DNA from: Acidobacteriaceae bacterium KBS 83
GTDB lineage: Bacteria; Acidobacteriota; Terriglobia; Terriglobales; Acidobacteriaceae
Direction: 5' to 3'
Length of the DNA: 64,000 bases
Assembly: GCA_000381585.1 (NCBI GenBank)
Contig: KB906734.1
Location: forward strand, 744,001-808,000
Shown here: one piece after another, positions 1-64,000 of the stretch
How positions within the stretch are numbered: position 1 is the first letter of the stretch
How the letters are laid out: every line of letters begins with the position of its first letter
Position numbers and translations under genes: made by a program
The notes under the pieces: generated by a model
What the model saw: only the letters and a program-made list of their open reading frames with translations
Told to the model about the DNA's origin: nothing
Database searches by the model: none

Positions 1-1054
1 CGGAGCCCTTAGGGAAGTCAGAAGGCGTAAGGCACCGCTTTTCGCCGGTCGAGAAGGAGAACAGGACCACCCCGAACTGCCCTGCCGTAGAGCAGTGATC
101 GATCATCAGCATCCCCTTGCCATCAGAAAGCCACGCGACCGGGCCGGGGTTAGTGCCCGGGCAGCCGACAGTCGTCAGCCTGCGTTCGGCGCCTCCGAGT
201 GCAGGGACAATATAGACACCGTCGTTCTTCCCGTCGCATCGGCTGAAAGCGATCTCGCGTCCATCCGGGGACCAGGTGGGAGGACCCAAAAGTCCACTCT
301 TGCTATAGGTGAGGCGGAGCGGCAGAGGAGCCCCCAGCAACTGCGCATAGATGTCAAAGCGCTTCCGCTCGGGCCCATTCCAAGCGAAAGCGATCTCGCG
401 TCCGTCGGGCGAGAATGCTGGGGCAATCGCGTCGCCCGGTGCAGTTGTGACGGGCACAATTTGCAGGGCAGGCCGGACCTGGTTCCCCTCGCGAGACGCA
501 GCGCCGTGGCGCATCCGAAGAATCAGTACGGTGCCGGCTGCGGCAAAGACGATCAAGACGGCCCATGCGATGACTGTGGCGCGACGTCCCGGACGCCGAT
601 GAATTGCCATTCCTTCAGCCGTCGCTTCGGGAACCTGCCGTGGCTCCGTCGTTCCTTCGATCGTCGGCGAAGCGGGATCGCCATCGAATTTTGCGAATCC
701 GTTCCGAACGTTTACCGGCTGGGTTACAGGGGCGATAAAGCGATAGCCCCGCTTGGGCACGGTTTCGATGTAGAGAGGCGTGTCAGCCGAATCACCCAGC
801 GCGTCACGGAGCTTCATGACGGCCGTGTTCAGGCTATGGTCGAAATCAACGAAAGTATCGGAAGGCCACAACACCCGGCGTAGTTCTTCGCGAGTAACCA
901 TCTCCCCGGCGTGTTCGAGCAGGTACACCAGGATGCGGAAGGATTGCTCGCGCATCTTCACGGGCCTTCCGCCGCGACGCAACTCAGCATTGCGCTCGTC
1001 GACTTCAAAGACCCCGAAACGCCAGGTTCGCGTGGTGTTCGTGGGTGTCTCCAC
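1..1054 (-). CDS. Winged-helix DNA-binding / TolB-like propeller protein (3' end cut by window)
   Basis: This reading frame runs off the left edge, so only about 351 N-terminal codons are visible. The start is taken as GTG (1054-1052), preceded by AGAGGAG at a good distance. Residues ~8-100 form an OmpR/PhoB-type winged helix, ending in the typical 'YIETVPKRGYRF' wing. A single membrane segment follows at ~130-150, then TolB/WD40-type blades with 'FSPDGREIAFAW' and 'WSPDGREIAFSR'. It is built like the full-length paralogue at 20640-22922, so it is probably a membrane-bound one-component regulator with a periplasmic propeller. That topology and any ligand are inference. It is divergent from the small secreted gene at 1300. 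Confidence 0.85.
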   Translation of the reverse strand, partial: METPTNTTRTWRFGVFEVDERNAELRRGGRPVKMREQSFRILVYLLEHAGEMVTREELRRVLWPSDTFVDFDHSLNTAVMKLRDALGDSADTPLYIETVPKRGYRFIAPVTQPVNVRNGFAKFDGDPASPTIEGTTEPRQVPEATAEGMAIHRRPGRRATVIAWAVLIVFAAAGTVLILRMRHGAASREGNQVRPALQIVPVTTAPGDAIAPAFSPDGREIAFAWNGPERKRFDIYAQLLGAPLPLRLTYSKSGLLGPPTWSPDGREIAFSRCDGKNDGVYIVPALGGAERRLTTVGCPGTNPGPVAWLSDGKGMLMIDHCSTAGQFGVVLFSFSTGEKRCLTPSDFPKGS

Positions 1055-1179
1055 AATCCCACTCCTCTGGCGTCACTCGCCGCAGAGTGAGCACCGTCTC
1101 TCCGTTCCATGGCAGAGAGGAATTGGCCCAAGCATACGCCGATCTAAGTCTCCATCTCTGAGCAACTTCGATGGCGAGA

Positions 1180-1193
1180 CGCAATTGATTGCG
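1180..1193. promoter_or_regulatory. Candidate operator palindrome in the divergent 1055-1299 gap
   Basis: CGCAAT-TG-ATTGCG is a perfect 6-bp inverted repeat lying between the divergent starts at 1054 and 1300. It could be a binding site for the winged-helix regulator or another factor. Nothing else recognisable is in the 245-bp gap. The assignment is weak because a 12-bp palindrome can occur by chance. Confidence 0.3.
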
Positions 1194-1299
1194 GAATTAC
1201 CTCCAGTGCATGGCGTCCACTGCCGCAACGGCGCAAGTTACGCAGGATCGCCAGCGGCACCGGATTCCGGCGGCCGCAATTCAAACACGGAGAACTCCC

Positions 1300-1737
1300 A
1301 TGACCCGCCGCTCTCGAATCCTCACCAACTTGTTTTTCAGCATTCCCCTGGCCACCAGCCTGCTTTGCGCCGCCCCCCACGCCGGAGCCCAGACCAGCGC
1401 ATCCTTCACCGTCCCATTCGCTTTCTCGGCCAACAATCAGAACGTGCCTGCCGGCTCGTACAACCTGCGACGGGAATCGAGTTGCATATTGTCTCTTGAC
1501 AATGTCAAGACAGGAAAAAGCCAATTCCTGATGGTGCGTCCAGACGACTCGGGGCAGGCCATTGAGACACAGGGCCGTCTCGTCTTCCGGCGTTACGGAA
1601 CACATATTTATTTGACGCAGGTCTGGAGTCCCGGAACGAGCAGGCACAGCGAATTGGTTGTGCAGCCCAAGACCGAGCGCGATTTGGCCAAGGGAAGCCC
1701 GCAGACGGGGTCCTCCTTCGAAGTGGCTTTGAAGTAA
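1300..1737 (+). CDS. Small secreted protein, acidobacterial family of unknown function
   Basis: The 145-residue product begins with a signal peptide (MTRRSRILTNLFFSIPLATS, then a small-residue region ending AGAQ). The body is a compact beta-rich domain with 'FTVPFAFSANNQNVPAGSY', a motif I associate with short secreted acidobacterial proteins of unknown role. The frame stays open upstream to 1189, but ATG 1300 is preferred: it has ACGGAG upstream and places the signal peptide at the N-terminus. It is divergent from the sensor at 1-1054 and converges on the propeller gene at 1788, with a hairpin between them. No enzymatic motif is visible. Confidence 0.75.
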   Translation: MTRRSRILTNLFFSIPLATSLLCAAPHAGAQTSASFTVPFAFSANNQNVPAGSYNLRRESSCILSLDNVKTGKSQFLMVRPDDSGQAIETQGRLVFRRYGTHIYLTQVWSPGTSRHSELVVQPKTERDLAKGSPQTGSSFEVALK

Positions 1738-1750
1738 GCAACCAATCAAC

Positions 1751-1784
1751 CTGCGGCCGATCACCCGTGAGCGACCGGCCGCAG
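1751..1784. terminator. Bidirectional hairpin between convergent genes
   Basis: CTGCGGCCG and CGGCCGCAG form a perfect 9-bp stem around a 16-nt loop. It lies 13 bp after the stop at 1737 and 3 bp before the convergent stop at 1788. There is no strong T-tract on either side, so it may be a stem that blocks read-through rather than a canonical intrinsic terminator. Confidence 0.6.
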
Positions 1785-1787
1785 CCG

Positions 1788-4241
1788 CTACTTCAAGCCA
1801 TACACATCAATCTCTCCCTGCGGATTCGTAACCGTCGTTAGATCATGTCCGGTCGAGATATACACCTTCCCATTGGCAACCACCGGCGAAGTGAACTTGA
1901 TCCCGAAGCCCGGCACATCGGCCGCGTTCTCGCCGCTGTCATACAACTCCGCCCCTAGGTCGTTCGCGTCATAGGCCCGCAGCGTCGATTTCGTCGGGGT
2001 GCTGCTCGTCTGCAGCGGCTGTCCCGTATCGATCATCCACAGGATCCCGTTCGCCGATCCGTCCGAGGAGACGAACGGTGTCGTGCCGCGCGTTCCCTGC
2101 AGAATGCTCGGCGTCGTCTCCGCTCCGTAAGAAAGCTTTCCGGAGTACACGAACTCCCGCACACCGGCAGGCGCCGTAGGCGCCGTCGGCGTCACGCCCA
2201 GATAAATCGACCCGTTGTAGAATGCTGCCGTTCCGAATATCTCGTACGAATTGCCTTGCGTCGTATGGGCTCCCGAAGCGTCGGTGCAGCTTGTAGAGTA
2301 AGGTGCGCTCAGATCGGACTCGAAGAATATCGTCTGCACCGCGCCCGCGTCGTTCGCCTGCTCTTGCCCAAGGTTGGCAGTATTCACCAGGAACAGCTTC
2401 CCGTTCTTGCCGCCGCCCACAAGATTCGAGCTTCCCGGAATCAACAGCAGTCCGCCCGCAGCTAAATCGCCATCATTGCAATTCAGGAACTGGTAGTTGT
2501 TCGGAGTGAAGTAATCCAGCAGCTGCAGCGTCGGGCTGAATTTCAGGATCGAATCACCAAATGCAGTCTGTCCATCCCACGGCCCGTTCCCGGTCGATAC
2601 ATAGACATTCCCCGCGTTGTCTGCCACCGGGCCTCCGCTGCCCATCCAGACACCGCCTGCGCCCCCGTACGTGCCTTCGCCGTCGATGTTCGGGCTGGCG
2701 TTGAAGACACCAGTCCGCGCCAGCGTGTGCGCGTCGTACGCCAGCAGCCACCCGCTGTGGCAGTTCCCAAAGCCGAGATACACGTTGCCGTTTGCCAGCA
2801 GCAGCGCCGCCCTCTGAATGCACGATCCCGGCAGAGACACCACGCCGTTCACCGCCGTCGAATTTGTTCCCGGAACTGACGCCTGGATGGTCACCGGACC
2901 GCTGAACTTCTGTGCGCCGGTCGTGATATCCAGTGCGTTCAGCCGGAAGCTTGAGACGCTTGCCGTCCTGTGAGCTGATACCACGTACATCGTGTTCGAA
3001 GCCGGATCGATCACCGGCGTGGACGTCACGCCCTGGTACGGCTGAATCGGTCCTGCTGTGACTGGCGTCTCTCCAGACTGAAGCAGCGAAACGTGCCACA
3101 GCGGTGTCCCGCTTCCATAGTTGTCCGCATCGAAGGCGTATACGCTGTCGTGCTCGGTGGCGACATAAAGAACGTTGTGCGTCGCTCCGTTGATCGTCAC
3201 ATTGGATATCAGTAGCGGCTCGGCATACGCGTAACCGTCCACCAGATAGGAAAACAGCTTCCCGAATGTCTTCGAGTTAACATTCCCCGGCGACAGCGAG
3301 GTCTCTTTGTTATTCCATCCGCTGCGGCCGTTGTCGAAATGCCATGTCGGGACATTCACCCCGGCGGTGCTGTTCACTGCACTCACGGTAAGAGGGTCGC
3401 TTCCCGTTATTCCGCTCAGTGAGGCCGTAACCTGCGTGGAACCTGGAGCGACTCCCGTCGCCAATCCGCCCGAGGTGATCGTCGCCACTGTAGTATCTGC
3501 AACTGCCCAGGCCGCCGTTGAAGTAACGTCCGCGGTCGAGTTATCACTGTATGTCGCCACGGCGTCGAACTGCTGCTGGCTCCCCACCTTAACAGTCGCG
3601 TTGCTCGGCGTCACCGCAATCGCCGTCAGCGTCTTCGTGGAAGACGTAACCGTGAGATTGATCGTCGTGTATGCAGCGCCGCCGCATTTATCCCACTCTT
3701 CCACCACCGTGTGCTCGGCGCCATTCGCCAGCGTCAAACTCGTGTTCAGTGTCGCTGCATTCACGACATACACCAGCTTGTTGTTGACGTAGATCCCCAT
3801 CGAAGCGACGCCCTTTGCACAAGCGCTGGTCGCGGTCGCTGTGTAACTCACCGGAGAAGTGACCGTGCTGTTCGCAAGCGGCGCGGTCACCGTCACGCCG
3901 GATTTGCCACCGCCGCCACCACTGGAAACCGTGATCGGAACTTTGGTATACGAGGCACCCCCGCATTTGTCCCACTCTTCCACCACTGTGCCGTACGAAC
4001 CCGCCGCCAGCGAAAGCGTGGTGTTCATCGTTGCCGCGTTCACCACGTACGTCAATTTGTTATTGACGTAGATACCCATGGAGGCGACACCCTTCGAGCA
4101 CGTCGTGGTTGTCGCCGTCGCTACGTAAGGAACAGGCGAGGTGACAGTTGCACCGCTCTTCGGACTCGTAACCGTCACACTTGCGAACGCAGAGGCAGCA
4201 AATGACAAAAGAATGTAAGCAAGAGAGTGGATGGCCCTCAT
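1788..4241 (-). CDS. Secreted protein with two Ig-like repeats, a BIG2 domain and a PQQ-type beta-propeller
   Basis: The 817-residue product starts at ATG 4241, with AAGGAGG directly upstream and a signal peptide at residues 1-21 ending AFA. Residues ~22-108 and ~118-205 are two near-identical Ig-like modules, each with 'KGVASMGIYVNNKL' and 'VVEEWDKCGGA'; a GGGGG linker joins them. A bacterial Ig-like (BIG2) domain follows at ~210-295. The remaining ~500 residues are beta-propeller-like (PQQ/quinoprotein type: 'STPVIDPASNTMYVVSA', 'NVYVSTGNGPWDG', 'GKLFLVNTANLG'). It is probably an extracellular or surface-exposed adhesin or binding protein. No catalytic residues could be assigned. A longer in-frame start at 4319 would put 26 residues before the signal peptide and is less likely. 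Confidence 0.8.
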   Translation of the reverse strand: MRAIHSLAYILLSFAASAFASVTVTSPKSGATVTSPVPYVATATTTTCSKGVASMGIYVNNKLTYVVNAATMNTTLSLAAGSYGTVVEEWDKCGGASYTKVPITVSSGGGGGKSGVTVTAPLANSTVTSPVSYTATATSACAKGVASMGIYVNNKLVYVVNAATLNTSLTLANGAEHTVVEEWDKCGGAAYTTINLTVTSSTKTLTAIAVTPSNATVKVGSQQQFDAVATYSDNSTADVTSTAAWAVADTTVATITSGGLATGVAPGSTQVTASLSGITGSDPLTVSAVNSTAGVNVPTWHFDNGRSGWNNKETSLSPGNVNSKTFGKLFSYLVDGYAYAEPLLISNVTINGATHNVLYVATEHDSVYAFDADNYGSGTPLWHVSLLQSGETPVTAGPIQPYQGVTSTPVIDPASNTMYVVSAHRTASVSSFRLNALDITTGAQKFSGPVTIQASVPGTNSTAVNGVVSLPGSCIQRAALLLANGNVYLGFGNCHSGWLLAYDAHTLARTGVFNASPNIDGEGTYGGAGGVWMGSGGPVADNAGNVYVSTGNGPWDGQTAFGDSILKFSPTLQLLDYFTPNNYQFLNCNDGDLAAGGLLLIPGSSNLVGGGKNGKLFLVNTANLGQEQANDAGAVQTIFFESDLSAPYSTSCTDASGAHTTQGNSYEIFGTAAFYNGSIYLGVTPTAPTAPAGVREFVYSGKLSYGAETTPSILQGTRGTTPFVSSDGSANGILWMIDTGQPLQTSSTPTKSTLRAYDANDLGAELYDSGENAADVPGFGIKFTSPVVANGKVYISTGHDLTTVTNPQGEIDVYGLK

Positions 4242-46798: not shown

Positions 46799-46948
46799 TT
46801 ATTTGCTGCCCAGCAATCTTCTGGAGATGCCCCGCGAAACGGTTCGCTCTGCCGCCACTGCGGCCACGGCCAGCAGAGCAGCCGTTGCCACGCCCAGGCC
46901 GATCAGGCCCGCTGTTGTTCCCAGAGTGATCACCGCGAGTCGCATCAT
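46799..46948 (-). CDS. Small single-TM protein encoded between secD and secF
   Basis: This 49-residue ORF starts at ATG 46948, which overlaps the secD stop as ATGA; a second ATG follows at 46945. The product is one hydrophobic segment ('LAVITLGTTAGLIGLGVATA', continuing Ala/Val-rich) followed by a basic tail ('ERTVSRGISRRLLGSK'), as expected of a small inner-membrane protein with a cytoplasmic positive end. The stop-start overlap and position inside the operon argue for real translation coupled to SecD. I do not recognise a family. It ends 73 bp before the secF start. An accessory SecDF subunit is a guess. Confidence 0.6.
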   Translation of the reverse strand: MMRLAVITLGTTAGLIGLGVATAALLAVAAVAAERTVSRGISRRLLGSK

Positions 46949-48546
46949 ATGGAAAGCGCCTCCCCGCGCCCCTTACGGTTCAGAATGGCGTCAAAGATCG
47001 TCCGCGACACAAAGACCGCCGTGAACAGGTTCGCGCCCAGACCAAAGACCAGCGTGACAGCGAAACCCTTCACCGGGCCAGTGCCGAAGAGAAAGAGGAT
47101 GGCCGCCGAGACCATCGTCGTAACGTGCGTGTCCAGAATCGTCGTCCACGCATGTGCGAAGCCCTGATCCACCGACGCCGCAGCGGATTTCCCAGCGTGG
47201 ATCTCTTCCCGGATGCGCTCAAAGATCAGCACATTCGAGTCCACGCCCATGCCGACCGTCAGGATCACGCCGGCAATGCCGGGCAAGGTCAGCGTCGCGC
47301 CGGTAAAGCCCATCCAGCCGAGCAGAATCACCAGGTTGAGGAAGAGCGCTAGATCTGCATTGATGCCTGCGCCCTTGTAATAGACCAGCATGAAGATCAT
47401 CACCGCCAGCATGCCGACGATCGACGCCGTCACGCCCTTGCGGATCGAATCCGCACCCAGCGACGGCCCAACCGTGCGCTCTTCCAGGTAATGAATCGAA
47501 GCCGGCAACGCGCCCGTCCGCAGCATCAGCGATAGATCCTTTGCCTTCTGCTCGCCCAGCCCCGAAATCCGTCCCTGGTCCCGGATCGCTTCCTGGATGT
47601 TTGCGACTTCCTGCACCCGGTTGTCCAGCATGATCGCCATCGGCTTGTTCACGTTCTTGCTGGTGAAGTCATAGAAGCGGTCGCCGGCAGCGCGGGTTAA
47701 AATAAAGGTCGCATCCGGCCGGCCGTTTTCGTCCCGCCCGGGTTGCGCATCGCGGAAATCCGGACCGCGTACTACCGCCACGCGCTGCAGCAGGTAATAC
47801 TGCCCCTGCAAGCCCGCTTCGTTGCCGCCGTACGCTATCAGTTCCTGGTCGGGCGGTATCGCGCCGTTGTTCGCCTGCTTGGCCGCTTCTTGCGTGGCAT
47901 ACGGGCCGCCGGCTACGGCATGGATCTCAAGAATCGCCGTCGACTGGATAATGTCCCGCACACGGCCGGGATCGTCCACGCCCGGCAGTTCCACCAGGAT
48001 CTGGTTCTTGCCGAGACCGTACTCCTGCACCGTCGGCTCGGTCACGCCGAGCGAGTTGATGCGCGTGGAGATGGTCTCAATCGATTGCTGCAGCGTCTTT
48101 TTCTCCAGAGCCAGCTGCTCGCTAGGCTTCAACGTCAGCGTGTAGCCATCCTGGGTCGAGCTGATGTTGTATTGCTGGCCATACTTGGTATCCAGCAGGT
48201 TGCGTATGTCCCCGGACTTGTCCGCGGGTACGCCGGAGATCTGGAGAGTCAGTGGGTCCGATGGGTTGGGCTTCACGATCGACCCAACGGAAATGCCTGC
48301 GGCCTGGAGATCGCTCTGCAAACGGCCCAGGGCATTGTCCGTCTCCGCGCCGACGGCCTCATCGACCATTACCTGCAACACCAGGTGCGTGCCGCCCTTC
48401 AGGTCGAGACCGAGGTTGATCCGCTTGGCCAGCGCATCCTTGAGCGCTTGGCCGCCGAGCCCGTGAGGAATGCCGAAGATCCCGAAGATGAAGACCAGCA
48501 GGATGGCGACGATGAGAACTGTTTTACCGGTTAGATTCTTGCGCAT
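46945..48546 (-). CDS. secD: Protein translocase subunit SecD
   Basis: The 533-residue protein has an N-terminal membrane helix, then 'RINLGLDLKGGTHLVLQVMV' (the SecD DLKGG signature). A large periplasmic P1 domain follows ('RINSLGVTEPTVQEYGLGKN', 'ILVELPGVDDPGRVRDIIQS') and then a block of membrane helices ('TVGMGVDSNVLIFERIREEI', 'TTMVSAAILFLFGTGPVKGF'). It works with SecF and YajC at the Sec translocon. Its stop overlaps the start of the small ORF. Confidence 0.95.
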   Translation of the reverse strand: MRKNLTGKTVLIVAILLVFIFGIFGIPHGLGGQALKDALAKRINLGLDLKGGTHLVLQVMVDEAVGAETDNALGRLQSDLQAAGISVGSIVKPNPSDPLTLQISGVPADKSGDIRNLLDTKYGQQYNISSTQDGYTLTLKPSEQLALEKKTLQQSIETISTRINSLGVTEPTVQEYGLGKNQILVELPGVDDPGRVRDIIQSTAILEIHAVAGGPYATQEAAKQANNGAIPPDQELIAYGGNEAGLQGQYYLLQRVAVVRGPDFRDAQPGRDENGRPDATFILTRAAGDRFYDFTSKNVNKPMAIMLDNRVQEVANIQEAIRDQGRISGLGEQKAKDLSLMLRTGALPASIHYLEERTVGPSLGADSIRKGVTASIVGMLAVMIFMLVYYKGAGINADLALFLNLVILLGWMGFTGATLTLPGIAGVILTVGMGVDSNVLIFERIREEIHAGKSAAASVDQGFAHAWTTILDTHVTTMVSAAILFLFGTGPVKGFAVTLVFGLGANLFTAVFVSRTIFDAILNRKGRGEALSI

Positions 48547-48573: not shown

Positions 48574-48894
48574 TTACTTGACTTCCTCGGGAGTATTGGT
48601 AGTCACGGCCGCAATGGCCGACTTCACGATTTCAACCCTGATGCCATCCGGCGGCAGCTTCAGCTGGATTGCGTCCTCGCGCAGCGCCACGATCGTTCCG
48701 CGCATTCCGCCAGTGGTCGTGATCTTGTCGCCGATCTTCAGGTTGTTCAACATCTCCTGCCACTGCTTCTGCTTTCGCTGGTTCGGCCGGAAGAGCAGAA
48801 GATAGAAGACGCCGACCATCAATACGGCAGGCAGAAAAGTGACAAAGCTGCTTGGCAGCCCGGCTACGAAAAAGGCGGAAAGTTCCACGAACAC
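48574..48894 (-). CDS. yajC: Preprotein translocase subunit YajC
   Basis: The 106-residue protein starts at GTG 48894, with AAGGATC upstream. It has one membrane helix (~17-37), then the YajC motif 'LLLFRPNQRKQKQWQEMLNN' and 'KIGDKITTTGGMRGTIVALR'. It is the first gene of yajC-secD-(small ORF)-secF, 27 bp before secD. In many bacteria tgt lies directly upstream; here a damaged block separates them. Confidence 0.95.
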   Translation of the reverse strand: MFVELSAFFVAGLPSSFVTFLPAVLMVGVFYLLLFRPNQRKQKQWQEMLNNLKIGDKITTTGGMRGTIVALREDAIQLKLPPDGIRVEIVKSAIAAVTTNTPEEVK

Positions 48895-49153
48895 AGAGAT
48901 CCTTCTTCCATCAAGGTGCTCCGTCCCGCCGCGCCGGTTCTGGAGGCTGGCGCGGTGGCTGCAGCTTCAGTGCGGGTGCACGGGAAAGGAGCGGGTATGG
49001 CAGGCAATCCCGAGCAGCTACCGGTCTGAAATCCCCGGCCACCACTCATCCCGCCTCGGTCCGACTCCCGGAGCGCCCACAAAGGCGCGCACACAGGACA
49101 CACAGATCGGCAGGATACCTAAGCAACAAGCATCACGGAGTCTGCGGCTTGTG

Positions 49154-49877
49154 TCAAGGGATGGTCGAAGGGCTCGGCATCGGACAGGTGGCGGAAAGCG
49201 CGCCTTCCAGATCCTCCTTCTCCACCGAAAACGTCACCGCCGGCCGGGATGACCCTGCCGAACGTCTGAGGTGAAACACATACAAAGTCTCGAAATCATC
49301 GCTCGGCCATCCCGGCACCACGGACGGATCCATCCCGTAGGAACGCAGCATCTGCCGGGCAAAGTCATAGGCGTATTTGTGCTCCCAAGCGATGAAGACG
49401 GTGCCGTTCGCATACTCCGGCGCAGTCACCTCACTCTGCAGCGCGGCGATATCTCGGAACCCAAGCTGGGTATTCACCGGCAGTCCAAGCTCGATCGCTG
49501 TTGGCTCAATCGTGGCCAACGGCCGCACATAGGAATACATCTTGGCTGACAACGAGTTCTCTCTCATCTGCACTGCAGGATTCGGAGCGAAGATCGCGTT
49601 TGGCTCGACCAAAGCGCCCAATCAATACCTTCGGTAAAGCCAAAGACCGGTTTAGCCCCATGCAACTGATCTGGCCCAGTCCTCCAAGGGGCTTCTCGCC
49701 GTGTCGCAGGACGACAATCGTCTCATCGCTGCTCGTAGATGCCGCTGGCTGCTTTCCGGAATCCCTGCAGCCACTCGATACCATGCAGAGCACGCCGAGT
49801 ATTGCTGCCAGGAGCGAATCCGAGAGCGATGGCGTTCCCCTCGACCGTGCGCCTTTGCGAATTGTGATAAGCCACAT
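49154..49877 (-). pseudogene. Histidine-phosphatase-family lipoprotein, frameshifted
   Basis: The first frame starts at ATG 49877, with a lipoprotein signal ('LLAAILGVLCMVSSGCRDSG') and the phosphatase motif 'ETIVVLRHGEKPLGGLGQ' (RHG), then 'GLNRSLALPKVLIGRFG'. The second frame continues 'EPNAIFAPNPAVQMRENSLS', 'GTVFIAWEHKYAYDFARQML' (second catalytic His region) and 'GWPSDDFETLYVFHLRR'. Removing one base near 49606-49608 gives 'GRFGEPNAIFAPNP', the expected continuity. So one extra base splits the gene. It lies next to the rearranged permease gene. Confidence 0.75.
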
Positions 49878-49943
49878 GCAATCGCGAATATTACAGATAT
49901 AAGGTAGTGAAAATCGTCGCCCGATCGAGGGAAGTGTCTGCCT

Positions 49944-50117
49944 ATGACGGAACCTGGGTTTCTCAGCGCATTGCGGCAGGACCTCCGCTTCGCCGCTCGA
50001 ATGCTCCTCAAACGTCCCGGCTTCTCCGCCGCGATCGTTCTTACGGTGGCTTTCGGCATAGGCGCAAACACAGCGCTCTTCTCTGTCATACGAGCTGTGC
50101 TGCTTCGCCCCCTCGGC
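49944..50117 (+). pseudogene. Permease gene, N-terminal fragment (left of inversion)
   Basis: 58 codons encode the start of a duplicated-type MacB/FtsX permease: '[20 protein letters not shown]', '[20 protein letters not shown]' and '[17 protein letters not shown]'. After CTCGGC (50112-50117) homology jumps to the opposite strand. About 45 residues that should follow in this family appear to be missing. Confidence 0.75.
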
Positions 50118-50890
50118 TATGCCGCCGAGCATGGACAGCAGAGTGCTTTCCGTGAGGAGCTGCCGGAGAAGGCGGCCGCGGCCTGCACCGACCGCGGCAC
50201 GGACGGCGAACTCGCGGGCACGTGTCGCTGCACGAGCCAGCAGCAGGCTTGCGACATTTGCGGAGACGATGAAGAGCATCAGGCCGACGGCGCCGCTGAG
50301 GAGAAGCAACGGCAGCCGCACATCGGCGACGATCGATTCCCGGAGCGACTGCACGTGCGCCGGATTGTCCTCGGTCGAGGGTTTGGCGTCGAGCATGGCG
50401 GGATGCGCTGCCGCGTACTGGCGATTGAGGGTGGTGAGCTCCGCGTTGGCTTGAACGAGAGAGACGCTGGGTTTGAGACGTCCGAAGATCTGCAAGTACG
50501 GGCTCAGCGGGCGCGACTTGACGGGCATCAGCGACCACTCGATGGGTCGCGTGATCCAGACATCGGTCTTCGCATCCACGAAGGGGAAGTCGAAGCGCGC
50601 CGGCAGAACACCGATGATGGTGTAGGGGATGCCCGCGAGGGTCGCAGTGTTCCCGAGAACGCGAGGGTCGCCGCCGAAATGCTGGTGCCACAGACGGGTA
50701 CTGATGATGGCGACATCCGGACCGCCGGGGCGGTCTTCGGCGGGCAGGAATGATCGGCCGAGCGCCGGCGAGACGCCAAGGATGTCGAGAAAGTTGCCTG
50801 AGACGCGAGCGGCGCTGACAACCTCAGTTTCGTCTCTTCCGGCGAGCGCCATCTGCTCTGCCCCGCCGGAGAAGATGCCTGTGTTCGTCG
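50118..50890 (-). pseudogene. Permease gene, inverted central segment
   Basis: Read on the minus strand, this segment encodes the periplasmic core and first FtsX block of a MacB/FtsX-like permease: 'VVSAARVSGNFLDILGVSPA', '[20 protein letters not shown]', '[20 protein letters not shown]' and '[18 protein letters not shown]'. It ends exactly where the plus-strand segment at 50891 resumes in sense ('SMLGGI' + 'LGVLFAWAALRGIR'). It is therefore an inverted internal piece of the flanking gene, not a separate gene. The 467-codon open frame running through it to 49506 is an artefact of the junction. Confidence 0.75.
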
Positions 50891-52321
50891 CTCGGCGTCC
50901 TTTTTGCATGGGCCGCTCTGCGCGGTATTCGCACCGCGACGGCGCTTGAACTGCCGCGCAGCTCGGAGATCCATCTCGACCTCGCTGTTCTCGCCTTCGC
51001 GTTCGCGCTCTCCCTGCTCACCGGCATCCTCTTCGGCCTCGCGCCCGCGCTCTCTGCCTTTCGCCGCGACCTTGCCGCCGTCCTGCAGGGCAATCTCCTA
51101 AACACCTCCGCTCGCGGCAGGTTCCGCCGCCATCTTGCCGCCGGTCCGCGCGGAATGCTGGTGGCCGGGCAGGTCGCGCTCTCGCTCGTCCTTTTGGTAA
51201 GTGCCGGGCTGCTCCTCCAGAGTCTCGCGCACCTCTATAACGTCGATCCCGGGTTCCGCCCGGAACGCGTACTCACCATGTCCGTCTCGCTCGCCCCCGC
51301 GCAATACGACACCGACGCCAAACGGGGCGGCTTCTACACCCGACTCGTGGAACGTGTGGAGGCCATCCCCGGCGTTGAGAGCGCGAGCGTTACCCTCACC
51401 TTGCCCACTACCGGCTGGGCGGGAGCGCCGGTCCGGATCTCCGGCCGCCCGGAGTTGCTCCTGAATCAGCGGCCTATCGCGATCCTCCAGCAGATCTCGC
51501 CGGACTACTTCCGCACTCTCCAGATTCCTTTGAACCGTGGCCGCGCCTTCACCATCGGCGATACGGCAAACGCACCCGGCGTCACCATCATTGACGAAGG
51601 TCTCGCGCGCCGCTTCTGGCCCCAATATCCAGACGGCGAAAACCCCATCGGCCAGCACCTGCTTGTCGGCTCAAGCAAGCAACCACTCGAGATCGTTGGT
51701 ATCGCCGCGCCAGTCCGCCAGCAGGGCCGCGATGCAGATCCTATGCCCGGCTTCTACGTTCCGAATGCGCAGCAGCCGCCGCAGGCTGCGATCCTGGTGG
51801 TCCGCACAAAGAGCAATCCATCTGCCTTCGCCGATGCGGTCCGCCGCCAGGTTCTCTCCCTCGATCGCAACCAGCCCGTATCCGATGTCAAGACACTCTC
51901 CGCCGTCCTCGATGACTCGGAAGACCAGCGGCGCCTGATGTTCGCGCTTCTCGGAGCCTTTTCGGTCGCCGCCACGCTGCTCGCCGTCGTTGGCCTGTAC
52001 AGCGTCATCTCCTATTCGGTCGTGGAGCGCACGCGTGAGATCGCGATACGTCAGGCACTCGGCGCGCGGCGCGGCAACATTCTTGCGCTGGTGCTGCGGC
52101 AGGGCCTTGCTATCGCTCTTGCCGGCATCGGATTCGGCATCGCCGCGGCCGCTGGGCTCACGCGCCTGTTGAGCTCGATGCTTTTCGGTGTAAAAGCCAT
52201 CGATCTGGTTACGTTTCTCTCAGCCGCGACGCTCTTTCTCATGGTGGCACTCGCCGCCAGTTATATTCCGGCACGGCGGGCGGCCGCCATTGAGCCTATG
52301 GTCGCGCTCCGTGATAGCTGA
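50891..52321 (+). pseudogene. Permease gene, C-terminal part (right of inversion)
   Basis: 476 codons continue the permease: 'LAVLAFAFALSLLTGILFGL', 'MLVAGQVALSLVLLVSAGLL', second periplasmic core 'ISPDYFRTLQIPLNRGRAFT', and the last FtsX block 'VVERTREIAIRQALGARRGN' ending 'ASYIPARRAAAIEPMVALRD'. The segment begins at CTCGGC (50891-50896), the same six bases found at the left junction. It could still be translated from an internal start (e.g. near 51155), but it lacks the first half of the protein. Confidence 0.75.
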
Positions 52322-52325
52322 CGTT

Positions 52326-53468
52326 CTATTCGCTGCGCGCGCTCACCCGCTCCGTGGGGGAGAGCGGCGGTATACCGCGCCCCAGACTCTCTCGCATCCG
52401 CGCCATCGTTTCCAGATAGAAGGCTAGGTTATGCAGGGTGTTCAGCACCGCAGACAAAGGCTCCGCCGACACCATCAGGTGCCGCAGGTAGGCTCGCGTG
52501 TAGCGTGCACACACCAGGCACTTGCAGTACGGATCAGGCGGCATCTGGTCTTCCGCAAACTGCCGGTTCTTGATATTCAGCCGGCCCTCTGATGTAAACA
52601 ACAAACCATGCCGCGCCGCACGCGTCGGCAGGACGCAGTCCATCATGTCCACGCCCATCTTCGCGTACTCGACGATCTCCTCCGGGTATCCGACACCCAT
52701 CACGTACCGCGGCTTGTCTGCAGGCAGCAGCGGCAGCGTCCTCTCGATGATCTCGCGTGTCAGCTCGCGGGGTTCGCCCACGCTCAGGCCGCCAATCGCG
52801 TAGCCGGGAAATTCCATCTCTACCAACCGCTCCGCCGATTCACGTCGCAGCTCCGGGTACATTCCGCCCTGCACGATGCCGAACAGCGACTGTGTGCGTC
52901 CGCCGAATTCCCCATGCCATGGCACCTCGTGCTTGTGCGACTCGAAGTAGTGTTTACTGCGCGCAGCCCACTCAAGCGTCAAATCCAGCGAGCCCCGCGC
53001 CCGCTCGCGGTCCGCTGGATACTCCGTGCACTCGTCGAAGACCATCAGAATATCCGCGCCCAGAGCGATCTGAATTTTGATCGAGCGCTCCGGCGAGAGG
53101 TGGTGCAGCGAGCCGTCCAGATGCGACCGGAACTCCACACCCTCCGCCGACACCTTCCGCAGTTCATTCAGGCTGAAGACCTGGAAGCCGCCGGAGTCCG
53201 TCAGCAGGCCGCGTGGCCAGCTCATGAAGCGATGCAACCCGCCCATGCGTCGCACCACCTCGAGCCCGGGCCGCAGATAGAGATGGTACGTATTGCCGAG
53301 GATGATCTGCGCGCCCAGTGCTTCCAGCAGATGTTGCGGCACCGCCTTGACCGACCCCACCGTACCCACCGGCATAAAGACCGGCGTTTGCACCTGCCGA
53401 TGCGGCAGGTCCATCACTGCACGGCGGCCCGCGTCGGCAGTTGCCAGGATTTGGAAGGGAAGACTCAC
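52326..53468 (-). CDS. tgt: Queuine tRNA-ribosyltransferase
   Basis: The 380-residue TIM-barrel enzyme exchanges guanine-34 for preQ1 in tRNAs with GUN anticodons. Motifs are 'TPVFMPVGTVGSVKAVPQHL', 'LLTDSGGFQVFSL' (catalytic Asp region), 'LFGIVQGGMYPELRRESAER', 'GGLSVGEP', 'MDCVLPTRAARHG' and the zinc site 'CKCLVCARYTRAYLRHL' with the later His in 'LNTLHN'. Its start overlaps the folK stop by four bases. Confidence 0.95.
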   Translation of the reverse strand: MSLPFQILATADAGRRAVMDLPHRQVQTPVFMPVGTVGSVKAVPQHLLEALGAQIILGNTYHLYLRPGLEVVRRMGGLHRFMSWPRGLLTDSGGFQVFSLNELRKVSAEGVEFRSHLDGSLHHLSPERSIKIQIALGADILMVFDECTEYPADRERARGSLDLTLEWAARSKHYFESHKHEVPWHGEFGGRTQSLFGIVQGGMYPELRRESAERLVEMEFPGYAIGGLSVGEPRELTREIIERTLPLLPADKPRYVMGVGYPEEIVEYAKMGVDMMDCVLPTRAARHGLLFTSEGRLNIKNRQFAEDQMPPDPYCKCLVCARYTRAYLRHLMVSAEPLSAVLNTLHNLAFYLETMARMRESLGRGIPPLSPTERVSARSE

Positions 53469-60975: not shown

Positions 60976-61824
60976 ATGGCCTGGTTCAAGCGGCAGGACA
61001 ACGAGATCGAAAACAGCTCTCCCGAGAAGCGGGTTCGCACCGAAGGGCTCTGGGTCAAGTGCGAAGGCTGCGACCAATACATCTTCAAGGCCGACCTCGA
61101 TAACAACCAGCAGGTCTGCCCCAAATGCGGCCAGCATCACAAGATCGACGCACGCTGCCGCGTCGCCAACCTGCTCGAGCCCGGCTACGAACTCGTAGAC
61201 CTGGAGTTGAAGTCCACTGACCCGCTCAACTTCTACGACGTCAAGTCCTACAAGAGCAGACTGGCCAAGGCACAGCAGGCCACCGGCCTCAACGACGCCA
61301 TCGTGAACGCGGTCGGGAGGCTGGGGACGCACGATGTCGTCCTCAGCGTGATGGAGTACGCCTTCATCGGCGGCAGTATGGGCTCAGTCGTCGGCGAAAC
61401 CATCGCCCGCGCTGTTGACCGCTCGCTCGAGTCGCGGCGCCCGCTCATCATCATCTCAGCCTCCGGCGGCGCGCGCATGATGGAGGGCATCGCCAGCCTG
61501 ATGCAGCTCGCCAAGATCTCGAGCGGCCTGGCCCAGCTCGACGACGCGGGCGTCCCCTACATCTCCGTCCTGACGGACCCCACTACCGGGGGCGTCACCG
61601 CCAGCTTCGCCATGCTGGGCGATCTCAACATCGCCGAGCCGGGCGCGCTCATCGGCTTCGCCGGTCCCCGCGTCATCGAGCAGACCATCCGCCAGAAACT
61701 CCCCGAAGGCTTCCAGCGCTCCGAGTTCCTGCTCGAGCATGGGATGCTCGATGCCGTCGTTCCCCGCCAGGAGCTGAAGCCCTACATCGACCGCGCACTG
61801 TCGTTCATGACAGCTGCCACGTAA
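60976..61824 (+). CDS. accD: Acetyl-CoA carboxylase carboxyltransferase subunit beta
   Basis: The 282-residue protein has the N-terminal zinc ribbon (C-x2-C in 'VKCEGCDQYIF' and 'VCPKCGQHHKI') and the crotonase-like carboxyltransferase core ('IGGSMGSVVGETIARAVDRS', 'IISASGGARMMEGIASLMQL', 'TDPTTGGVTASFAMLGDLNI', 'IGFAGPRVIEQTI'). It pairs with AccA, not seen here, to make malonyl-CoA for fatty acids. GAGGG lies ~10 nt upstream of ATG 60976. Confidence 0.95.
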   Translation: MAWFKRQDNEIENSSPEKRVRTEGLWVKCEGCDQYIFKADLDNNQQVCPKCGQHHKIDARCRVANLLEPGYELVDLELKSTDPLNFYDVKSYKSRLAKAQQATGLNDAIVNAVGRLGTHDVVLSVMEYAFIGGSMGSVVGETIARAVDRSLESRRPLIIISASGGARMMEGIASLMQLAKISSGLAQLDDAGVPYISVLTDPTTGGVTASFAMLGDLNIAEPGALIGFAGPRVIEQTIRQKLPEGFQRSEFLLEHGMLDAVVPRQELKPYIDRALSFMTAAT

Positions 61825-61914
61825 TCCATCGGACCGAGAGATTCTGAAGACTCCTCGACGTGACCGCCGTGCCCAGCAAAACCTCGCCGTAGCTGGTAGC
61901 AAGATCTCTTGCCG

Positions 61915-62598
61915 TCACCGTTGAAGTCGGCTGTCACCGCGACCTGATGGCTCCTCAGGTTTCCGCGCAAGGATATAAGCCCGTCGGCTCTGGTGCTCCA
62001 CCTCGGGTGCGTAGGGTTCGCGTTCGATCACCTCTTCGACAACCAGGCCGGCCGCTTCTAGATCACGCTGAATGCTTTGTGGTTGAAAGAAGTGGAAGTC
62101 GATATTGACCGGGCGATCCCACCACTCATCTCTATGAACTGTTTCCTCGCCGATGTGGTGGGAGAGCAGCAGCAAGCCGGCAGGCTTCATCACGCGCGCC
62201 ATCTTATGGAAGGCCTGGGGCAGCGCTGCCCTGGGGAGATGGACGATGGCGTAGACGGCGACGATGCCCACGAGCGAGTTGTCGGGAAGATCGAGAGCCA
62301 GCATGTTGCTCTGGCGAAATGCGATCTCCGGGTTGAGGCGGCGCGCCTCTTCGAGCATGCCCGGTGAAAGGTCCAGACCGAAGACATCCGCGCCCGCGTT
62401 ATGCAGAAATCGTGCGATGTGACCTGGTCCACAACCAAGGTCACACACCTGTCCCTTGCCCTTGACTGCAGCAGCGAAACGGGTAAGCAGCTCGCGATCG
62501 AACGGCTTGTTATCCAGTTCGGCGTAGAGGTGGCGTGCGTACTCGTCGGCGACGCGATCGTAGCCTTGCTGGATGGATTGGATTGTTTTGTCGGTCAC
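61915..62598 (-). CDS. Class I SAM-dependent methyltransferase
   Basis: About 227 residues from GTG 62598, preceded closely by GAGGAG. This start avoids overlap with the upstream gene; the open frame extends to 62781 without conserved features. The SAM-binding motif I reads 'VCDLGCGPGHIARFLHNAGA' followed by 'VFGLDLSPGMLEEARRLNP', and motif IV-like 'IVAVYAIVHLPRAALPQA'. The substrate is unknown. It is downstream of the Kdo hydroxylase on the same strand. Confidence 0.85.
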   Translation of the reverse strand: MTDKTIQSIQQGYDRVADEYARHLYAELDNKPFDRELLTRFAAAVKGKGQVCDLGCGPGHIARFLHNAGADVFGLDLSPGMLEEARRLNPEIAFRQSNMLALDLPDNSLVGIVAVYAIVHLPRAALPQAFHKMARVMKPAGLLLLSHHIGEETVHRDEWWDRPVNIDFHFFQPQSIQRDLEAAGLVVEEVIEREPYAPEVEHQSRRAYILARKPEEPSGRGDSRLQR

Positions 62599-62666
62599 CG
62601 GCTCCTCGACGCTGCGCTGTTGCGCCAGACTTCGAAGGATGACACCGTTCTTCGCGCGTGGTCGAA

Positions 62667-63578
62667 CTAGATCAACCTGGCACCGGTGAGTTCCTGAAGC
62701 ACCGTGAGTGGCGCGTGTTGCGGCGCGACCATGGCCTGAGGCGCGACAAGATAGGTCTGCTCCAGTGCGTATTGGCCGCATAGGACGGCGTGAGGAACCA
62801 TGTCGGTGTAGACCATCCAGCTTGATCCTGCAGGGAACTGGTAGTCGTACTTGCTGCAGGAGCTTTGGAAGGCGCGGTTCTCCTTGAGGAAGTTATGGAA
62901 GCGCATCATGAAGTCGTCGTAGGGCGAGCGCTTGAGCGCGGGCGCGGCTGCGCCGAGGCCGATACCGGTCGCCAAGGACTTGAAGGCGCGGCCGATGCCG
63001 GAATCTGGCTGCGGCAGTGCGATTTCAGCGGGCGCGTACTTCGCGGCGACGGAGCGGAAGGGGTCACTGACGATCCAGTCGCGTGTACGGGTGGGATGAA
63101 TGTTATTGAAGAAGCGGAGAATGCGCGCACCATGGGTGGGACGCGTGGGAAAGGCGTCGGTGTGCAGCAGGTCGTTGCGGCGGCGCAGCGGCAAGTCGCG
63201 GCCCTCTTCCTCCTGCGGCCGGAAGCTCGCGTAGTCAAGCTGCCACTGACCGGCGTAGGGCGAGAGAAAGCCGGTGAGAAATGCCGTGACGGATTGCGAG
63301 TAGTTGCGCATGATCGCGCGCAGACGGTCGACGGCTGCGGGGTTGGCTGTTTTCGTGTCGACACCGGTGAGTTCGTTTGATTTCGGCTTATAGGCAATGT
63401 TCTTGTGCAGCGAGCTGTCGGTCTGCTGCTGGCCGCGCAGGAACTGGAGATCGGAATCAGCGAGCGCGATGGGGCTCTTAGGGAAGAAGAGAATTGAACC
63501 GGCTTCGAGGCTTTCGCACCACTGGCGATGTTGTTCGGCTGACCCGTTTTCTGTCGCAGTAATGGTGACGAGTGACAT
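62667..63578 (-). CDS. kdoO: Kdo hydroxylase (Fe(II)/2-oxoglutarate-dependent, KdoO family)
   Basis: The 303-residue protein matches the Kdo 3-hydroxylase family that modifies the Kdo sugar of lipopolysaccharide. The iron site is likely 'LLHTDAFPTRPTHGARILRF' (HxD) with the later 'DMVPHAVLCGQYALEQTYLV' (His). 'FPKSPIALADSDLQFLRGQQ' near the N-terminus also fits. It begins 5 bp after the upstream small membrane gene, so they are cotranscribed. Together with lptD it indicates an LPS-bearing outer membrane. Confidence 0.8.
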   Translation of the reverse strand: MSLVTITATENGSAEQHRQWCESLEAGSILFFPKSPIALADSDLQFLRGQQQTDSSLHKNIAYKPKSNELTGVDTKTANPAAVDRLRAIMRNYSQSVTAFLTGFLSPYAGQWQLDYASFRPQEEEGRDLPLRRRNDLLHTDAFPTRPTHGARILRFFNNIHPTRTRDWIVSDPFRSVAAKYAPAEIALPQPDSGIGRAFKSLATGIGLGAAAPALKRSPYDDFMMRFHNFLKENRAFQSSCSKYDYQFPAGSSWMVYTDMVPHAVLCGQYALEQTYLVAPQAMVAPQHAPLTVLQELTGARLI

Positions 63579-63583
63579 GGGCG

Positions 63584-63910
63584 TCAGTGAGCAGTGAGCT
63601 TGCGGTGAAGCCAGATGCCGAGAAGCACGGCGAGGCTGACGATGAGCACGAAGATGCCGGCGGGCAAAGCGATGAATTTGTAGCCCGTGTCGAGCGTGAC
63701 GTGATGGTGGCCACCGCCGTTGTAGATCATCAGCCCGAAGATGCTCAGGAAGGTGACGCCGAAGAACGTCATGAAGCCGAGGGCGAGCGCGATGAGAGTG
63801 CTGGCGAGGAGGCCGAAGTCGCCAATAGGAATGCCGCAGACACGGGTAGTTCTGTGGGCGGGGGCTGGGTCGGGAAAAGGGCCGGAACTGCGGGCAGAGA
63901 TTGCGGTCAT
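63584..63910 (-). CDS. Small two-TM membrane protein of unknown function
   Basis: The 108-residue protein has two hydrophobic segments ('LLASTLIALALGFMTFFGVT' and 'FIALPAGIFVLIVSLAVLLG') around a short loop with 'GGGHHHV', and a basic C-terminal end. I do not recognise a family. It is the first gene of a minus-strand unit with kdoO. Its start at ATG 63910 has only weak upstream purines. Confidence 0.6.
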   Translation of the reverse strand: MTAISARSSGPFPDPAPAHRTTRVCGIPIGDFGLLASTLIALALGFMTFFGVTFLSIFGLMIYNGGGHHHVTLDTGYKFIALPAGIFVLIVSLAVLLGIWLHRKLTAH

Positions 63911-63943
63911 ATGCGAAGAGCGCTCTCAGCTAGAATACAAAAG

Positions 63944-64000
63944 ATGGGGCACACCGCACAGACAGAGCTGTTGCCGGCCGCCGAAGTAGCGAGGCAGACG
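63944..64000 (+). CDS. Start of an unidentified gene cut by the window edge
   Basis: Nineteen open codons from ATG 63944 read 'MGHTAQTELLPAAEVARQT'. It is divergent from the small membrane gene, and a TAGAAT hexamer upstream at 63931-63936 could be a -10 element. Too little is present to name a product. Confidence 0.35.
   Translation, partial: MGHTAQTELLPAAEVARQT

Follow-up and report, generated by a model that had tools for sequence, protein, structure and literature searches.

An ADOP-family permease gene of Acidobacteriaceae bacterium KBS 83 is split into three pieces lying on the plus, minus and plus strands, with nearly a third of the gene turned round. Sequence comparison indicates, with a probability that we put at about 0.8, a recent loss-of-function lesion, namely a pseudogene produced by inversion with deletion. 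The locus was analyzed within a window of 64,000 nucleotides (C2:744001-808000 of the organism's own genome, G000; 6.25 Mb, 21 contigs, 99.3% complete), and positions given without a contig name refer to this window.

Three pieces of one permease gene

The reference for the comparison was G001, a metagenome-assembled Acidobacteriaceae genome (85% complete, 550 contigs) and the sole congener compared, in which the permease sits at the same place as the window gene, adjoining the yajC-secD block. Contig C547 of that genome (8474 bases, read whole as L028) carries the gene on the minus strand (2378..3) as a single open frame of 792 codons up to the contig end, and contig C347, whose first 27 bases are identical to the end of C547, carries the remainder to the stop. 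A protein scan of named genomes recovered eight loci: JAUTWX010000312.1 (MAG: Acidobacteriaceae bacterium isolate BP_1), presumably identical with C547, at 79%, and seven others at 21-35%. Plasmid records yielded just distant partial matches, in two records, both from Gemmatirosa.

Once the middle piece is read on the minus strand, all three window pieces are collinear with this one intact gene (blastn, 77-79% nucleotide identity; Table 1), and their protein identity to it is ~80-85% (left 0.85 over 54 codons, inverted 0.81 over 253, right 0.82 over 441). The intact congener thus supports what the sequence-only reading had proposed, an inversion plus deletion within a single permease gene, while shifting several of its details. 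The inverted segment, previously placed at 50118-50890, is best bounded at 50120/50121 and 50888/50889 and has the same length in the window and in G001; the loss at the left junction, earlier put at ~45 codons, amounts to 84 bp. Similarly, the motif 'SMLGGI' had been taken as the end of the inverted piece, and its 'I' probably belongs to the left flank, being TAT read backwards, with TAT present in the left flank of G001. The right piece shows further small length differences from G001, of 3 and 12 bp, both in whole codons.

Table 1. Positions of the permease pieces, their junctions and neighboring features in the window
Feature	Position	Strand	Description
Left piece, ADOP permease	49944..50120	+	59 codons from ATG at 49944; 49954-50120 matches G001 at 78% nt
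Left junction	50120..50121		84 bp (28 codons) of the G001 gene without counterpart
Inverted piece	50121..50888	-	768 bp = 256 codons, open throughout; 50121-50882 matches G001 on the opposite strand at 77% nt
Right junction	50888..50889		~1 bp of G001 sequence without counterpart
Right piece, ADOP permease	50889..52321	+	in frame from 50891, stop included; 50889-52216 matches G001 at 79% nt
467-aa ORF	49506..50909	-	inverted piece, running into the antisense of the left flank and beyond
RHGEK-motif gene	49175..49808	-	split over two frames by a 1-nt insertion near 49601; 250 aa and intact in G001
S9-family peptidase gene site	49162..49181		674 aa (2-kb gene) in G001, absent in window
tgt	52326..53468	-	open; bounds the accessory block
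yajC	48574..48894	-	open; bounds the accessory block; secD (46945-48546) next

Family membership was assessed with NCBIfam TIGR03434 (ADOP family duplicated permease; curated cut-off 622.3 bits for the whole protein). The G001 permease scored 846.9 bits in one continuous run, whereas the window ORFs each fell below the cut-off, the right one at 448 bits and the minus one at 264 bits. The minus ORF holding the inverted piece covers profile positions 94-335 and the 388-aa right ORF (51155-52321) positions 418-802, so that the pieces cover successive parts of the profile in a copy that is broken. Consistently, the G001 protein contains two MacB_PCD and two FtsX domains, and the minus and right ORFs of the window contain one of each apiece. 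Judged from its sequence, the window gene is a pseudogene of the ADOP family, not a working member, and the 467-aa minus ORF is likely a mis-annotation rather than a gene.

Gene order and age of the break

The presumed pseudogene belongs to a small accessory block bounded by tgt and yajC. Genes in G001 follow one another as GT87 gene, permease, RHGEK gene, S9 peptidase, yajC and secD (the names yajC, secD, folK, nadD and rsfS used for the window neighbors are ones that we assume). The ~1.4-kb GT87 gene separating the permease from tgt in G001 is absent from the window, where the two stops are 4 bases apart (52321-52326). The S9 peptidase gene is also missing, G001 positions 3170 and 5196 corresponding to window positions 49181 and 49162, and the best match to it elsewhere in the organism's own genome reaches just 37%. 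The S9 and GT87 genes may have been lost here or gained in the G001 lineage. The RHGEK-motif gene, which we take to be phosphatase-like from its motif, carries a frameshift in the window, and its intact G001 protein matched no family in Pfam or NCBIfam.

To place this block in the wider family, 20 family stretches were read from yajC outwards (2 shortened by contig ends; E 1e-6). The tgt-yajC distance was 185-417 bp in 12 of the 20 and 1.7-5.4 kb in four, with no tgt in the remaining four. The RHGEK, S9 and GT87 genes were found in none of the 20 at this threshold, and two contained another ADOP-like permease at 34-36%. Since tgt lies <0.5 kb from yajC in 12 of 20 stretches and none holds the RHGEK, S9 or GT87 gene, the block is peculiar to the genus among the stretches read.

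Orientation was surveyed by comparing window positions 4001-64000 with G001, giving at least 111 matches, with paralogues accounting for many of them. For the three long contigs that parallel the window (C254 with 11 matches, C347 with three and C547 with five), 18 of the 19 matches share one orientation per contig among the matches listed, and the sole reversed one among them is the inverted permease piece. Outside these 19, the matches of contigs C456 and C494 to window positions 61299-64000 are jumbled in order and, for C456, lie on both strands, a pattern reflecting either a rearrangement or a fault of the metagenome assembly. Given C456 on both strands, the inverted piece may not be the sole orientation change near the locus.

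The dN/dS values against G001 are 0.097 for the left piece, 0.115 for the inverted piece and 0.149 for the right piece, compared with 0.083-0.255 for five open neighbors (secD 0.089, yajC 0.116, tgt 0.083, folK 0.255, nadD 0.182); one part of the RHGEK gene gives 0.205, and saturated synonymous change prevents a value for the other. Not one stop occurs in 787 permease codons, against an expectation of 0.47 per 1% of neutral change, which limits neutral change since the break to at most ~6% at the 95% level (3/0.473). The stop-free pieces, together with dN/dS of 0.10-0.15, mark the break as recent, and the divergence from G001 must therefore have built up mostly under selection.

Junction repeats and the origin of the inversion

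Repeats at the junctions were scored against those around 300 random position pairs 768 bp apart (60 pairs for the 150-bp range). The hexamer CTCGGC, previously read as microhomology flanking both junctions, is present as a direct repeat (50112-50117 and 50891-50896); however, direct repeats of at least 6 bp occur in 31-bp stretches around both positions in 64 of the 300 random pairs, and a direct orientation cannot pair for an inversion. The hexamer was accordingly discarded as a meaningful flank, which leaves the microhomology argument unsupported; template switching itself may nonetheless have occurred. A 10-bp direct repeat, GCCGGAGAAG, lies at 50162-50171 and 50865-50874, both copies within the inverted piece, and a 9-bp inverted repeat occurs within 150 bp of the ends. 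Random pairs reach the former in 9 of 300 cases at the 60-bp range and 11 of 60 at the 150-bp range, and the latter in 27 of 60; neither was accepted as a cause. No long inverted repeat was found in 49000-53000, the longest measuring 19 nt at 79%.

In the reading that we propose, two breaks ~0.85 kb apart cut a once-intact ADOP permease gene, and the fragment, having lost 84 bp at its left end and ~1 bp at its right end, was rejoined backwards. The scar suggests that the ends may have been joined by Ku/LigD-type end joining, in which, according to the available text of PMC7719229 and PMC8656161, bacterial ends are joined without a template. Both kinds of gene are present here: two Ku matches at 157.1 and 135.4 bits (cut-off 25) and a LigD polymerase domain at 285.5 bits (cut-off 214.7), with a second at 210.5, below the cut-off. 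The above-cut-off domain and one Ku gene share a strand at a distance of ~2 kb (G000:C3:456304-459635). Contig C9 carries the second Ku gene, and C5 the second, weaker polymerase domain. Action of this pathway at the locus would be read from the scar. Relative to G001, 84 bp are missing on the left and ~1 bp on the right, with any shared bases blurred by ~20% divergence. For the joining step we give end joining about even odds and prefer it to template switching, but the evidence scarcely tells them apart.

The same inversion could have arisen by copying, either template switching or microhomology-mediated break-induced replication: the new strand would have jumped to the opposite strand, copied ~0.77 kb in reverse and returned past 84 bp left uncopied. 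This possibility, which we hold tentatively as the lesser one, differs from end joining in the joining step only, and it too is expected to leave an inversion accompanied by a small deletion and by short homology at the junctions. Exact junction homology is unreadable because the sole relative differs at ~20% of bases. The main point in favor of copying is an 8-bp inverted repeat, CGCCGAGC (50123-50130) and GCTCGGCG (50890-50897), 1-2 bases from the junctions, a proximity matched by 2 of 300 random pairs within 15 bp; edge inverted repeats of 3-8 nt are held meaningful in the available part of PMC8755829. Yet such a repeat is reached by 14 of 300 random pairs within 30 bp and by 66 of 300 within 60 bp. 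Moreover, G001 reads CTCGGCGGCGCGCTCGG where the right end of the inversion would later fall, two copies of the motif standing there as direct repeats, and turning round a piece with one motif copy would leave an 8-bp inverted repeat at the ends as a result rather than a cause. The repeat is thus probably a by-product of the flip.

An assembly or library chimera, with the gene intact in the organism, had been named as an alternative by the sequence-only reading and is unlikely. The locus is known here from assembled sequence alone, and the neighbor's 1-nt frameshift might equally stem from poor sequence. Nevertheless, an assembler would not flip a piece over a repeat as short as the 19-nt one noted above, the end of the gene lies ~137 kb deep in a contig of 933 kb, and secD, yajC, tgt, folK, nadD and rsfS around the locus are all open; a chimera alone, moreover, does not account for the missing 84 bp together with the lesions next door. 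It is a long shot that a single burst of error-prone repair or replication produced the 768-bp inversion, the 84-bp loss and the neighbor's 1-nt insertion ~500 bp off, perhaps with the loss of the next gene; such an event would be a bacterial analogue, on a small scale, of clustered replication-based rearrangement.

A reversible, programmed inversion that switches the permease (an intragenic inverton) is very improbable, even though the inverted piece divides evenly into codons and remains open. The ends offer no useful inverted repeat, the longest within 15 bp being the 8-bp one that is probably a by-product, and none of the 76 matches of the G001 permease in the organism's own genome reveals an opposite-strand piece in another ADOP copy. 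The genome yielded 8 matches to the serine (PF00239) and 13 to the tyrosine (PF00589) recombinase domain, all outside the window and the nearest ~104 kb from the locus; a recombinase switch was rejected, with no such match within 100 kb. With 84 bp gone, a second flip would not bring back the gene as it stands in the congener.

A large permease family and the probable loss of one member

The 76 matches of the G001 permease in the organism's own genome comprise 58 near full length in a single match, three from the window gene, two each from four other loci, and seven short partial matches. The resulting ~63 ADOP-like loci in 6.25 Mb represent a large expansion. The other near-full-length copies share 29-41% protein identity with the G001 permease, and two short pieces share 44% and 47%. 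Of four damaged-looking ADOP copies that were retrieved, L153 and L154 each switch reading frame, L155 contains an in-frame stop, and L156 turned out to be open; the other two split loci each hold one open frame of >900 codons. Counting the window gene, four damaged ADOP copies were seen in the genome.

With ~60 paralogues available, the minus piece could in principle be a fragment of a different permease gene lying in between, but we consider this next to impossible and rejected it, because the piece has ~80% protein identity to that part of the same gene in G001 which the two flanking pieces lack, is 768 bp long there too, and all three pieces match that gene far above any other (near-full-length paralogues at most 41%, short partial matches at most 47%). 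A different permease subfamily for the minus piece, which the sequence-only reading had set as a test, is not what the alignment returned. Preferring a single gene broken by inversion with deletion, we infer that the loss of this permease may have been tolerated because the genome holds ~60 related ones.

As far as the available text of PMC8755829 goes, human/chimpanzee microinversions span 17-33 nt, occur mostly without other change and are all edged by inverted repeats. The locus described here shares with them a short segment turned round in place, but differs in its 768-bp length, its 84-bp loss and a short inverted repeat that is probably a by-product. Mammalian microinversions are merely cited in the available text of PMC2483231. 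Bacterial intragenic invertons (Chanin et al. 2024, as cited in the available text of PMC11868660) likewise involve inversion inside coding sequence, whereas this one is without usable inverted repeats or a serine or tyrosine recombinase match within 100 kb and is not restorable by a flip. A topic-based literature search returned nothing on this locus among the titles and abstract openings listed; 'duplicated orphan permease' led to a Dyadobacter description.

The locus provides a clean, recent example of a member of a large permease family dying by inversion with end loss, with no long flanking repeats at the inversion, in a genome that carries Ku and LigD-type genes. Such a gene could be mis-annotated as two separate ORFs, here one of 467 aa on the minus strand and one of 388 aa on the plus strand. 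Otherwise, it represents ordinary gene decay, seen unusually clearly thanks to the congener.
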